Source: an uncultured Bacteroidales bacterium (GTDB taxonomy: Bacteria; Bacteroidota; Bacteroidia; Bacteroidales; FEN-979). From it: 64,000 nucleotides of DNA. The position numbers were made by a program, and so were the translations under genes. The notes beneath the pieces were generated by a model. The model searched no databases and was not told where the DNA came from. It saw only the letters and a list, made by a program, of their open reading frames with translations. Shown piece by piece: positions 16,827 through 21,351 of this stretch; within the stretch, counting starts at the first letter, position 1, and the number at the start of each line of letters is the position of its first letter. Where the stretch lies: positions 1 to 64,000 of the forward strand of contig CAIMWF010000038.1 in assembly GCA_903845055.1 (NCBI GenBank), written 5' to 3'.

Positions 16827-17324
16827 CTATTGCTTTTCATACTGCTGGATTTCGTTGAATACGTATTCCAGCGTTACGCCGGCAATCCGGAACATCTCTT
16901 CGGATTCTCCACCATCGTGATACTTGCGTTCACACACCACCCGCTCAATACCGCAGTTGATGATCAGCATGGCACAAGTGCGGCAGGGGGTCATCCTGCA
17001 GTACAATGTAGCCTTTTCAAGCGGTATCCCCAGCCGGGCAGCCTGGCAGATGGCATTTTGTTCTGCATGAACGGTCCTCACGCAATGCTGCGTTATACGT
17101 TCATCCTCGTGCAACATCTTTTTCATCAGGTGGCCAACCTCGTCGCAATGGGGCAAACCGCGCAGCGAACCAACATACCCTGTAACCAGTATCTGCCGGT
17201 CACGTGCGATGACACAGCCACTCCTGCCACGATCGCAGGTGGCGCGCTTTGAAACGGTGTGCGCAATCTCCATAAAATACTCATCCCAGGAGGGGCGTAT
17301 ATACTCAGCTGATTCCATGTGCAT
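16827..17324 (-). CDS. dCMP/cytidine deaminase family enzyme (probable deoxycytidylate deaminase)
   Basis: 165 residues. Zinc motifs HAEQNAI (His ligand and catalytic Glu) and PCRTCA (two Cys ligands) are intact, and RGRSGCVIARD in the N-terminal part is typical of dCMP deaminases of the ComEB type. The enzyme turns dCMP to dUMP for thymidylate synthesis in the cytoplasm. A second ATG two codons in is an alternative start. A -7-like TATCTTTA lies at 17349-17342 (minus). Confidence 0.93.
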   Translation of the reverse strand: MHMESAEYIRPSWDEYFMEIAHTVSKRATCDRGRSGCVIARDRQILVTGYVGSLRGLPHCDEVGHLMKKMLHEDERITQHCVRTVHAEQNAICQAARLGIPLEKATLYCRMTPCRTCAMLIINCGIERVVCERKYHDGGESEEMFRIAGVTLEYVFNEIQQYEKQ

Positions 17325-17418
17325 TTCTGTTAACGATGCTGTAAAGATATGAAAAAGGGTTTGATCAATACAACCCGGTTTTGAAGCGGTTCAATGGGAT
17401 GCGGCCGCTGTCACATAT

Positions 17419-17455
17419 AAAAAAAAACCGGCCCTGCAAAATATCGCAGGGCCGG
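17419..17455 (-). terminator. Rho-independent terminator of lipoprotein copy A
   Basis: Perfect 10-bp GC-rich stem CCGGCCCTGC / GCAGGGCCGG, 8-nt loop, followed on the minus strand by nine T. One of the few classical terminators in the window. Confidence 0.9.
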
Positions 17456-17523
17456 ATAACCAGATACTAACCAACCAATTTAATTCAGCATTATGAACAA
17501 GCATTATTATACATGAAAACTTA

Positions 17524-18612
17524 TTTTTAATTCTTGATGCAGCGAACCGAGTAGCCCACAGCCCTGAAATCATCCAGGGTGAATCCTTCACTGGCTGACA
17601 TCCAGAGGACCATTGCCTTTGAAGTGTTTGCGATGGTGCTTGACCAGTAACCTCCCGATGCGCCCGGCCCGTAAATCTGCCCGTCGGGGAAGTCACGGTA
17701 TCCTGCGGTGACCCATTTGAGGGATGACCCGAAAGCTCCTGCCGTATTTTTGGTAGTCCAGGTAGCCACCTCAGCGGTGAACTCGGCATTGGTGGGGATC
17801 CGGTATCCTGCGGGACACGGGTTGTTGATGCCGGCTGCGCCCTGCCAGAGGTTGTTGTTCTGGGGCACTCTCCAGTCGCCGAGGGTCGACAGGGTTTTGA
17901 TGAAGAGGGAATGTCCTGGATTATCCTTTGAAGAGGTTGTGGAGGTGACGCCGTTTACCGGGGTTCCCAGGTATGCGCTGGCCCAGGTGATGCACTGGTG
18001 GTTGTCGGCAATGCGTCCCCACTGGTACTGCGAGCCGTATGCGAGGTAGTCGGTAGCTGCCTGTCCGACCCTGGAAGCGCCCAGGTTGCGGTCGAGCCAT
18101 ACTTTCTGTGTCTTGTGGTTTGCCACTTCATAATAGGTGTAACTGGTGTTGCACGAACTCTGCACGACCGGGGTGTTGCTGACTACGACCACGGTGAAGC
18201 TGGTGGTTGTACCGAAGGTCACGGTAAAGGTGTTGATGCCAGTGGCGACGGGAGTTCCGGCGCCGGGCAGGGTGATGGTCTGTGCCCCGGTGGCGGTGAA
18301 GGAACCGGATTTCGAGAAGTTGTACCCGTTGACCGTGCTGGTGGTGATGTTATAGGTGCCCACAGCCGTGACGGTGAGTTTAAGGGTGAGCGTATTTGCC
18401 GCGGTGAGGGCCACGCCGACTGGGTAATTGCCGTTGACCACGGTGCCGGTTGTGACGATCGAGCCGGTAGCTGCAGCCTTTAATCCGGAGATCACCTGTC
18501 CCTGGCCGGGACCCGTTTGTGTTTTGTCGGAGACTTTTTCACATCCCATAAAACTCATACTGAAAATAACGGCCAGCATCATGCACAGTGAAAGTAAATT
18601 TTTTGTTTTCAT
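17524..18612 (-). repeat. Long direct repeat, unit A
   Basis: Nearly identical at DNA level to 19180-20268 (period 1656 bp), limited to the coding region: similarity begins at the stop codon and fades at the start codon. Confidence 0.9.
17527..18612 (-). CDS. Lipoprotein with Fibrobacter-type paralogous domain, copy A
   Basis: 361 residues. A lipobox ends at MSFMGC (Cys24), so the protein should be lipid-anchored. Residues about 45-150 are Thr/Val/Gly-rich, probably a beta-sandwich (repeated NTLTLKLTV, GTYNITT patterns). The C-terminal 200 residues hold the 'major paralogous domain' seen in Fibrobacter and Bacteroidetes: VWLDRNLGA, QYQWGR, WRVPQNNN, CPAGYRIPT, GGYWSST, GYSVRCI. This domain resembles C-lectin/formylglycine-like folds and is thought to bind ligands at the surface. 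It differs from copy B at only about 11 residues, several of them in the signal peptide. Own terminator just downstream. Confidence 0.9.
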   Translation of the reverse strand: MKTKNLLSLCMMLAVIFSMSFMGCEKVSDKTQTGPGQGQVISGLKAAATGSIVTTGTVVNGNYPVGVALTAANTLTLKLTVTAVGTYNITTSTVNGYNFSKSGSFTATGAQTITLPGAGTPVATGINTFTVTFGTTTSFTVVVVSNTPVVQSSCNTSYTYYEVANHKTQKVWLDRNLGASRVGQAATDYLAYGSQYQWGRIADNHQCITWASAYLGTPVNGVTSTTSSKDNPGHSLFIKTLSTLGDWRVPQNNNLWQGAAGINNPCPAGYRIPTNAEFTAEVATWTTKNTAGAFGSSLKWVTAGYRDFPDGQIYGPGASGGYWSSTIANTSKAMVLWMSASEGFTLDDFRAVGYSVRCIKN

Positions 18613-19076
18613 AACAATGGGTGTTTAATATTGATTTCTGTAAAATAAATCTATCGTTGCGATGTCGGATTAAAATATTATGCAGAACAGGCATATAAAA
18701 TAACTTTACAAAGATGGAGAAAATATTATTCATGCGCAATAGTGATTATAAGTAAAATATAATAGTGGAATACAGGAATAAAATACTAACAATAAAAATG
18801 TAATAAATTAATAAACAAATATATATAAAATAAAAAGGCGTGATAAACGTACGGCATTTATAACGCCATTAAGATGAATTATAATTCAAAACGTATAATA
18901 TAGTTACTTACAAGATAAAAAATATACACAATTATCGATAACAATAGTAAAAAATATATACATTAATGTTTGTAAGACCGGTTGCTTGATATTCCGGTGG
19001 GTGTTATCGGGGAATATGCGGGTATTTGCGCGGATTGCTTGAGTGACCATGGCTGGCCGGGAGTGGCAGGATGAAC
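18613..19076. other. AT-rich gene-free spacer between lipoprotein copies
   Basis: No plausible gene. Strongly AT-rich from about 18,700 to 18,970, unlike its surroundings. A possible -7 of copy A (TAGATTTA on the minus strand, 18653-18646) and a weak inverted repeat GGCGT...ACGCC (18837-18866) are the only features I see. Confidence 0.6.
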
Positions 19077-19107
19077 AAAAACCCCGCCGGAAATGGGGCG
19101 GGGTTTT
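19077..19107 (-). terminator. Terminator of lipoprotein copy B
   Basis: Stem CCCCGCC / GGCGGGG extended by AAAA/TTTT pairs, 8-nt loop, five T on the minus strand. The sequence is unrelated to the terminator of copy A. T-rich on both sides, so it may work in both directions. Confidence 0.8.
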
Positions 19108-19179
19108 CTCTTCACAACGAGTAAAACAAGTATTAACTAACCATATTTATCTATCAATAGTTATTGCAGGAAGTGCTTT

Positions 19180-20268
19180 TATTTAGTTCTTGATGCAGCG
19201 AACCGAGTAACCCACTGCCCTGAAATCATCCAGGGTGAATCCTTCGCTGGCAGACATCCAGAGGACCATTGCCTTTGAAGTGTTTGCGATGGTGCTTGAC
19301 CAGTAACCTCCCGATGCGCCGGGTCCGTAGATCTGCCCGTCGGGGAAGTCGCGGTATCCCGCGGTGACCCATTTGAGGGATGACCCGAAGGCACCTGCCG
19401 TATTTTTGGTGGTCCAGGTAGCCACTTCAGCGGTGAACTCGGCATTGGTGGGGATCCGGTATCCCGCGGGACACGGGTTGTTGATGCCGGCTGCGCCCTG
19501 CCAGAGGTTGTTGTTCTGGGGCACTCTCCAGTCGCCGAGGGTCGACAGGGTTTTGATGAAGAGGGAATGTCCGGGATTATCCTTTGAAGAGGTTGTGGAG
19601 GTGACGCCGTTTACCGGGGTTCCCAGGTATGCGCTGGCCCAGGTGATGCACTGGTGGTTGTCGGCAAGGCGTCCCCACTGGTACTGCGAGCCGTATGCGA
19701 GGAAGTCGGTAGCGGCCTGTCCCACCCTGGAAGCGCCCAGGTTGCGGTCGAGCCATACTTTCTGTGTCTTGTGGTTTGCCACTTCATAATAGGTGTAGTT
19801 GGTGCTGCAGGAGTTCTGCACGACCGGGGTGTTGCTGACCACGACCACGGTGAAACTGGTGGTTGTACCGAAGGTCACGGTAAAGGTGTTGATGCCGGTG
19901 GCGACGGGAGTCCCGGTGCCGGGCAGGGTGATGGTCTGAGCCCCGGTGGTGGTGAAGGAACCGGATTTCGAGAAGTTGTACCCGTTGACCGTGCTGGTGG
20001 TGATGTTATAGGTGCCCACAGCCGTGACAGTGAGTTTCAGGGTAAGCGTATTTGCCGCGGTGAGGGCCACGCCGACCGGGTAATTGCCGTTGACCACGGT
20101 GCCGGTTGTGACGATTGAGCCGGTAGCTGCGGCCTTTAAGCCGGAGATCACCTGTCCCTGGCCGGGACCCGTTTGTGTTTTGTCGGAGACTTTTTCACAT
20201 CCCATAAAACTCATGCTGAAAATAACGGCCAGTATCATGACCAGTGAAAGAATTTTTTTTGTTTTCAT
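19180..20268 (-). repeat. Long direct repeat, unit B
   Basis: Partner of 17524-18612. Substitutions are scattered and sparse, including at third codon positions, while flanks show no similarity. Confidence 0.9.
19183..20268 (-). CDS. Lipoprotein with Fibrobacter-type paralogous domain, copy B
   Basis: 361 residues, the same layout as copy A: lipobox MSFMGC, beta-rich N-terminal domain, then the VWLDRNLGA to GYSVRCI paralogous domain. Compared with A, the signal peptide reads KKILSLVMILAV instead of KNLLSLCMMLAV, and a few conservative changes follow (for example DFLAYG for DYLAYG, GRLADN for GRIADN). Equal length and no frameshift indicate that both are functional. The upstream 500 bp and downstream terminator are unlike those of copy A, so the two copies may be expressed under different conditions. 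Confidence 0.9.
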   Translation of the reverse strand: MKTKKILSLVMILAVIFSMSFMGCEKVSDKTQTGPGQGQVISGLKAAATGSIVTTGTVVNGNYPVGVALTAANTLTLKLTVTAVGTYNITTSTVNGYNFSKSGSFTTTGAQTITLPGTGTPVATGINTFTVTFGTTTSFTVVVVSNTPVVQNSCSTNYTYYEVANHKTQKVWLDRNLGASRVGQAATDFLAYGSQYQWGRLADNHQCITWASAYLGTPVNGVTSTTSSKDNPGHSLFIKTLSTLGDWRVPQNNNLWQGAAGINNPCPAGYRIPTNAEFTAEVATWTTKNTAGAFGSSLKWVTAGYRDFPDGQIYGPGASGGYWSSTIANTSKAMVLWMSASEGFTLDDFRAVGYSVRCIKN

Positions 20269-20787
20269 CTGAATGGATTTAAATGGAGTTCGTTTTCGAA
20301 ATCAGGTATTGACCGTCAGGCCGTAAATAATCACCAGGTGACTAAAATATTTTACAAATATCAATGCATAAAAATTTCAACACAATAGCGGGTATGCGTA
20401 AAGAAAAATTGCGGCAAACCACTATATTTGCTTCTTTAATATAATGCAAATACTATAATATCAGCAATATAAATATTTGAATGCCGTACATCTGATGTAT
20501 AAAAGTGGTCTCGTTAGTGAGTCGCAAACCCGGTATTTTTACTGGCACTATATTTACAGTGCAATAATATATTATACATTCAGGAAAAATGTTAAATTAA
20601 TTTACACTTGTGGGTAAGCCCGGAGGATTACAAGATCACGAAGGAATCGGGAACTGATCCATCGAATGGGGCATTGCAGGAAGCGGGGAAAAGAAAAATG
20701 GAACCCGGCGTGCTGGGCAGAACCGGGAAAAAGTAACGGAAGCCTTTCTCCAGGCGAAAACCAGGAGGAAAAGGAGGTAATATAAAA
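20269..20787. other. Gene-free region upstream of copy B
   Basis: AT-rich up to about 20,600, then moderate GC. No convincing gene: the 65-codon minus-strand ORF here (20628-20825) is proline/phenylalanine-rich and overlaps the kinase gene end. One plus-strand -7-like TATATTTG (20423-20430) has no gene downstream on that strand; a small RNA is conceivable but unsupported. Confidence 0.5.
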
Positions 20788-21351
20788 CTAGGGGGTTTCG
20801 GAAATTTCTCCGAGAACGCGTTCAACCTCCAGGAAGAGGTCGTTCCTTGTCAAATCATTGTTAAATACGAAATCGGCCTCCCGGATGCATGCAGCCAGGT
20901 TCTGCCTGTTAGGGTCGCTGGTCCTCATCTCCCGTGCCTCATTTTCCGTAAAGGTTTCAAACGAGATCTGATCGGTTTCCGATTGCCTGCTGACGATGCG
21001 CTGGTAGCGGAGCCTGGGGTCGGCATCTACGGCAAAGAGGAAAAAGTTTCCCTTTTGGCGCAGGGCGCTGATTTCCCCGGGGGTCCTGATGCTTTCAATG
21101 ATACAATTCCTTCCTTTTGCGGCTGCCAGGAGATACAACTGGTCGGTCACCCAGGAGGGGCTGTGGAGCGCGCGAAGCTCATTGGCCAGGTTGAACATGC
21201 TGTCGCGGTTTTCGGCCATGCCGCGACGCCGGATCTCGTCGAGCAGGTAGGCCCTGACCGAATAGTGATCAAATCCCTTTTCCTGCACCAGGTATTCAAC
21301 TACCGTGCCTTTGCCGGCCCCGAGTGTCCCGGTGATCCCGATGATTAACAT
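20788..21351 (-). CDS. Small P-loop kinase (AAA_17/18, dephospho-CoA-kinase-like)
   Basis: 187 residues. Walker A GTLGAGKGT at the extreme N-terminus, then the NMP-kinase-like sequence YSVRAYLLDEIRRRG. RTPGEISALR and FLFAVDADPRLRYQRI in the middle resemble the lid and base-binding parts of dephospho-CoA or nucleoside kinases. These proteins are often annotated as dCMP-kinase or dephospho-CoA-kinase-like with no proven substrate. The P-loop is GxGKG, as in adenylate kinases. Follows the LOG gene in the same direction after a gap filled with short repeats. Confidence 0.82.
   Translation of the reverse strand: MLIIGITGTLGAGKGTVVEYLVQEKGFDHYSVRAYLLDEIRRRGMAENRDSMFNLANELRALHSPSWVTDQLYLLAAAKGRNCIIESIRTPGEISALRQKGNFFLFAVDADPRLRYQRIVSRQSETDQISFETFTENEAREMRTSDPNRQNLAACIREADFVFNNDLTRNDLFLEVERVLGEISETP

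Follow-up and report, generated by a model that had tools for sequence, protein, structure and literature searches.

The window, a stretch of 64,000 nucleotides from the genome of a lake Bacteroidales bacterium, carries two neighbouring lipoprotein genes (copies A and B) that are very probably an old duplicate pair, in which the coding bodies have been homogenised by gene conversion and the flanks were left unconverted. Gene conversion had been proposed in a preliminary description of the locus, and three comparisons now argue for it: the paralogues differ far less at synonymous sites (dS 0.14) than the orthologues do (about 2), their flanks have diverged no less than flanks compared across species, and a sister species carries a partial tract.

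The gene pair and its counterparts in related genomes

The genes of the locus, all on the minus strand, are the following.

16827-17324, minus strand: downstream neighbour, a dCMP/cytidine deaminase (PF00383), syntenic in G005 and G014
17527-18612, minus strand: copy A, a lipoprotein ORF of 361 aa with a signal peptide with an SFMGC lipobox-like motif, an Ig-like N-terminal region and a FISUMP-related C-terminal domain
18613-19182, minus strand: spacer from the stop codon of B to the start codon of A, 570 nt, 31% GC (orthologous spacer in G005, 578 nt)
19183-20268, minus strand: copy B, the 361-aa paralogue of A, 95.7% nucleotide identity by ORF comparison
20788-21351, minus strand: upstream neighbour, an AAA_18/AAA_17 nucleotide kinase-like protein, syntenic in G005

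The ORFs of A and B are co-oriented and comprise 1086 nt each (361 codons plus stop). The initial impression of about 11 residue differences with third positions mostly kept was borne out, with 11 differing residues and 47 nucleotide differences, 37 of them at third positions, zero gaps and a dN of 0.015. The copy number of the gene is two, and no copies beyond A and B were found in the assembly (95% complete, 3.95 Mb, 175 contigs).

The same gene order (kinase, B, A, deaminase) in unchanged orientation is found in a sister species of the same genus, G005 (locus L034), with a spacer of 578 nt as compared to 570 nt. The copies are denoted A0 and B0 in the window's genome (G000), A5 and B5 in G005, and A14 in G014. 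Across species the lipoprotein genes are about 70% identical and every comparison gave a dS of about 2, against the 0.14 of A0/B0, and the window's pair grouped together to the exclusion of the orthologues with a tree support of 100/100. Since G005 has the pair at this site too, and the spacing is almost unchanged, the pair most likely predates the split of the two species. If a pair this old had escaped conversion, a dS of 0.14 would be far too low, given the cross-species identity of about 70% for the lipoprotein genes and a pS of 0.58-0.77 for the neighbouring genes.

The full pair is carried by two genomes only, those of the window and G005. G014 was considered as a third case and rejected, because its assembly breaks between the kinase and the lipoprotein gene (L035 1-169 and L157 8373-8712). 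The copy seen there lies next to the deaminase at the start of one contig, the contig with the kinase stops 340 bp past that gene, and the two contig ends do not overlap, an arrangement that would fit one copy as well as two.

The gap between kinase and deaminase (17325-20787 in the window; syntenic sites in G001-G027, L147-L166) is a variable slot. It is empty in about nine genomes, where the kinase adjoins the deaminase, and elsewhere it is filled by T9SS-sorted BACON-domain secreted proteins of 950-1585 aa; lipoprotein genes occupy it only in G000, G005 and G014. Among these congeners the GC3 of the same gene is far apart (0.69-0.73 in the window's genome, 0.54 in G005 and 0.40 in G014).

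Flanks and edges of the similarity

Promoter-like and terminator-like elements were located around both genes.

17428-17455, minus strand: intrinsic terminator downstream of A, 12-bp stem with T tail, from the terminator scan
18709-18742, minus strand: promoter-like element CTATTG-N20-NATNTTTG upstream of A, motif start at -130
19079-19107, minus strand: terminator-like hairpin downstream of B, AACCCCGCC...GGCGGGGTT followed by a T run, recognised from sequence and alignment and missed by the generic scan
20355-20388, minus strand: the same promoter-like element upstream of B, motif start at -120

Outside the ORFs the ungapped identity falls to 22 of 60 bases on either side, and the aligned upstream regions of A0 and B0 are 48% identical, down to 34% adjoining the start codon, so that the described end of similarity at the start and stop codons stands. 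The upstream alignment z score was 1.2 for A0/B0, as compared to 7.4 for A0/A5, 7.2 for B0/B5 and 9.7 for A5/B5, and positional orthology was not clearly favoured over crossed pairing.

On the other hand, the view that the promoter regions are unrelated has to be abandoned. An element of the form CTATTG-N20-NATNTTTR lies about 120-134 nt 5' of the start codons of A and B, with only these two matches in 64 kb (0.01 expected), and it recurs with the same spacing before both G005 copies (the only two matches in L034) and 5' of the G014 copy. Its sequence is similar to TTTG / TAnnTTTG, the consensus of primary promoters in Bacteroidetes (PMC7366714). The two promoters share a single ancestral core element, and the suggestion of differently regulated copies is not supported. 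As the mark of a regulon the motif was not clear (7 sites in the genome versus 3 for a reversed control), and a generic sigma-70 scan is uninformative for Bacteroidetes. A hairpin similar to that downstream of B is present at the matching place 3' of B in G005, as seen in the alignment of the B downstream regions, and the flanks gave zero Rfam matches to structured RNA. The shared element and the 48% upstream identity point to diverged homologous flanks, whose age equals or exceeds that of the species split, and the edge at the start codon is a loss of alignable similarity between these homologues, not a junction with unrelated DNA.

Two clusters of A/B differences stand out.

18577-18600, minus strand: A codons 5-12, difference cluster and presumed 5' edge of the conversion tract; codon 5 is AAT (N) as in A5 and A14
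20233-20256, minus strand: B codons 5-12; codons 5-6 are AAA ATT (K-I) as in the B copy of G005
18142-18159, minus strand: A codons 152-157, linker into the FISUMP-related domain, second and equally dense cluster with 6 changes in 17 nt

The signal peptide region had been singled out as the most diverged part and the possible conversion boundary, and both points gained support. Four of the 11 replacement codons fall in codons 5-12 (P = 0.0003), and codons 5 and 6 track position, not genome: codon 5 encodes N in copy A of all three genomes (the window's, G005 and G014) and K in both B copies, and at codon 6 the B copies both have I, the A copies L or Y. This supports codons 5-6 as the 5' limit of the converted tract in the window's genome. 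The second cluster (B side 19798-19815) had been overlooked; at codons 152 and 157 copy B has states that are absent from G005 and G014. Codons 107 and 118 likewise track position when the window's genome is compared with G005 (A/A versus T/T), which suggests small unconverted patches. Among the quartet sites, 143 group by genome, 7 by position and 4 are crossed; this position-specific signal (7 versus 4) is suggestive overall and strongest at codons 5-6.

A partial tract in the sister species and the alternative explanations

In G005 the two copies are alike over part of their length only. Between A5 and B5, alignment columns 1-240 have a dS of 2.0 and a dN of 0.20, equal to the between-species values, whereas the dN over columns 241-330 is 0.03 as compared to 0.09-0.13 between species. 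A GENECONV-like permutation test picked out columns 233-341 as an A5/B5 fragment (p at most 0.00015), and an A5+B5 clade was recovered from these columns (support 100/99) and not from columns 1-232. The alignments and trees thus support a separate, partial conversion tract in G005 that covers the C-terminal domain only.

Tandem copies often arise independently, and the pairs could be recent duplications of a single gene of the slot, one in each lineage, with no conversion at all. For columns 1-232, A5+B5 monophyly was not favoured by the AU test but neither was it rejected (p 0.30), and since these sites are saturated they are compatible with a separate duplication in G005 soon after the split; the one copy seen in G014, beside its contig break, also agrees with such a history. 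However, a simple tandem duplication was already disfavoured in the preliminary description, and it fares no better here: a dS of 0.14 predicts flanks that are about 85% identical, against the 48% found (34% by the start codon), and the A0/B0 flanks are no more alike than flanks of different species. The same spacing and order arising twice, together with the states of codons 5-6, would have to be coincidence, and the restriction of similarity to columns 233-341 in G005 would be left unexplained. Independent duplications are largely refuted by flank divergence for the window's genome, and we regard them as very unlikely overall.

Equally improbable is that recombination between cells, allelic or ectopic, replaced the whole ORF with DNA taken up horizontally from a related strain. 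Such a replacement predicts the same pattern as conversion within the genome, and the neighbouring slot does vary between species, but the GC3 of A0/B0 (0.69-0.73) is within or near the range of the neighbouring genes (0.59-0.71), and linked repeats convert without any outside donor. It is still less probable that strain variants of one gene were placed twice on a contig: although the genome is a draft of 175 contigs, both copies lie on a single 86.7-kb contig with different flanks, and the same arrangement was independently assembled in G005 with diverged copies, which contradicts an assembly artefact. Finally, the pair is hardly a diversity-generating retroelement (DGR) target family of FISUMP/DUF1566 variable proteins, even though Fib_succ_major is among the DGR variable-protein domains (PMC4159848) and the extreme C-terminus is the part that differs most between species, because such membership requires a reverse transcriptase and a template repeat, and the window's own genome gave zero RVT_1 matches and zero template-repeat-like DNA for the last 274 nt, with all residues after codon 201 identical in A and B.

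Under the favoured reading of gene conversion, a surface lipoprotein gene would have been duplicated in tandem, promoter included, before the species split, and presumably RecA-type homologous recombination between the copies would then have overwritten the coding sequence repeatedly; an equivalent pair of unequal crossovers would yield an identical outcome. The last event or events in the window's genome would span nearly all of the ORF, beginning around codon 7-13 and reaching the stop codon, and an older event in G005 only columns 233-341. The states of A5, B5 and A14 gave mixed signals on the direction of conversion. Purifying selection would keep the ORFs pairable, and the intergenic DNA would have drifted too far to pair, so that tracts begin and end inside the ORF. 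Because the tracts stop where pairing fails, the sharp boundary would reflect the limit of recombinable homology, not the edge of a cassette; in line with this, the earlier alternative of cassette exchange is not sustained, as neither a mobile element nor a site-specific recombination signature was recognised at the pair. The benefit of homogenisation is probably the dosage of one binding protein. A more elaborate version, which we consider unlikely, holds that conversion is tolerated only in the mature protein. Selection would then preserve the differences between the two promoters and between the two signal-peptide starts and maintain a shared ectodomain, a single binding protein would be delivered under two separate controls, and across species the FISUMP domain would be the unit converted preferentially.

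The encoded protein and related systems

The lipoprotein is related to FISUMP (TIGR02145 / PF09603) proteins and is not a member by the curated cut-offs, since the matches of its C-terminal part are sub-threshold both for TIGR02145 (35.6 bits versus a cut-off of 41.65, E 1.4e-8) and for PF09603 (27.6 bits versus 33.9, E 4.2e-6). A sequence search of the PDB with the lipoprotein gave nothing significant. The AlphaFold2 model had a mean pLDDT of 84.7 for the whole protein and of 72.8 for the C-terminal domain alone. The N-terminal part is predicted to be a beta sandwich, and the fold search with the whole protein gave weak Ig-like matches only; the C-terminal domain model matched best, albeit weakly, the C-terminal domain of Legionella Lcl (probability 0.99, E 8.6e-3), followed by weaker matches to several C-type lectins. 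The likeness to Lcl C-terminal (DUF1566) and Fib_succ_major proteins thus consists of sub-threshold sequence matches and a weak fold match; unlike Lcl-type proteins, A and B have an Ig-like N-terminal region and no collagen-like repeats, and their domain scores fall below the curated cut-offs.

Surface lipoproteins of Bacteroidetes carry an export signal after the SPII cysteine, of the X-K-(D/E)2 type defined in C. canimorsus (PMC5080379). The signal peptide of A and B ends SFMG-C and is followed by EKVSDK, and the G005 copies continue with QKETEK and QKDVEK; the resulting CEKVSD (A/B) and CQKETE/CQKDVE (G005) resemble the C. canimorsus signal, although not all of them match it. From these models and motifs, the product is probably a surface-facing, ligand-binding lipoprotein of the outer membrane that combines Ig-like and C-type-lectin-like (FISUMP/Lcl) parts. 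Two or three FISUMP-type stretches lie close together in the distant relatives G073, G087, G068 and G046 (L013-L017), some of them within one long ORF, and these are further candidates for repeat homogenisation.

In the outer-membrane protein paralogues homA/homB and babA/babB of Helicobacter pylori, the 3' segments group by genome (concerted) and the 5' segments by locus (PMC2795765). The G005 pair has the same concerted pattern in its 3' segment, whereas nearly the whole ORF is involved in the window's genome. The H. pylori proteins have another fold than a lipoprotein with a FISUMP-related domain, and the present pair is tandem; homA/homB were compared among strains, the A/B pair between species of one genus and with no evidence of antigenic switching. 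The Salmonella duplicates tufA and tufB are likewise kept alike, by non-reciprocal RecA-dependent transfer, and their mean unrestricted conversion walk of about 1000 nt (PMC5485169) is comparable with the 1086-nt ORF; however, tufA/tufB are distant, inverted housekeeping genes, and A/B are tandem, co-oriented and poorly conserved surface genes. In the prokaryote survey of long-lasting concerted genes by Wang and Chen (2018), as here, paralogues are closer than orthologues at synonymous and non-synonymous sites, with synteny as evidence (PMC6053082). The 26 genes of that survey belong mostly to complexes and pathways, and outer-membrane genes were typical of the short-term kind, the class that the lineage-limited A/B pair fits (PMC6053082).

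The process of gene conversion is well known, and what the pair adds is a case from a protein family that has received little study, with each of two species showing a different stage of the process. It offers a clean natural example in which paralogue similarity would end at the start and stop codons as coding DNA stays recombinable and intergenic DNA does not, and G005 would represent an intermediate stage in which the tract edges are measurable. It is also a warning that such pairs mislead both the dating of duplications and gene trees.
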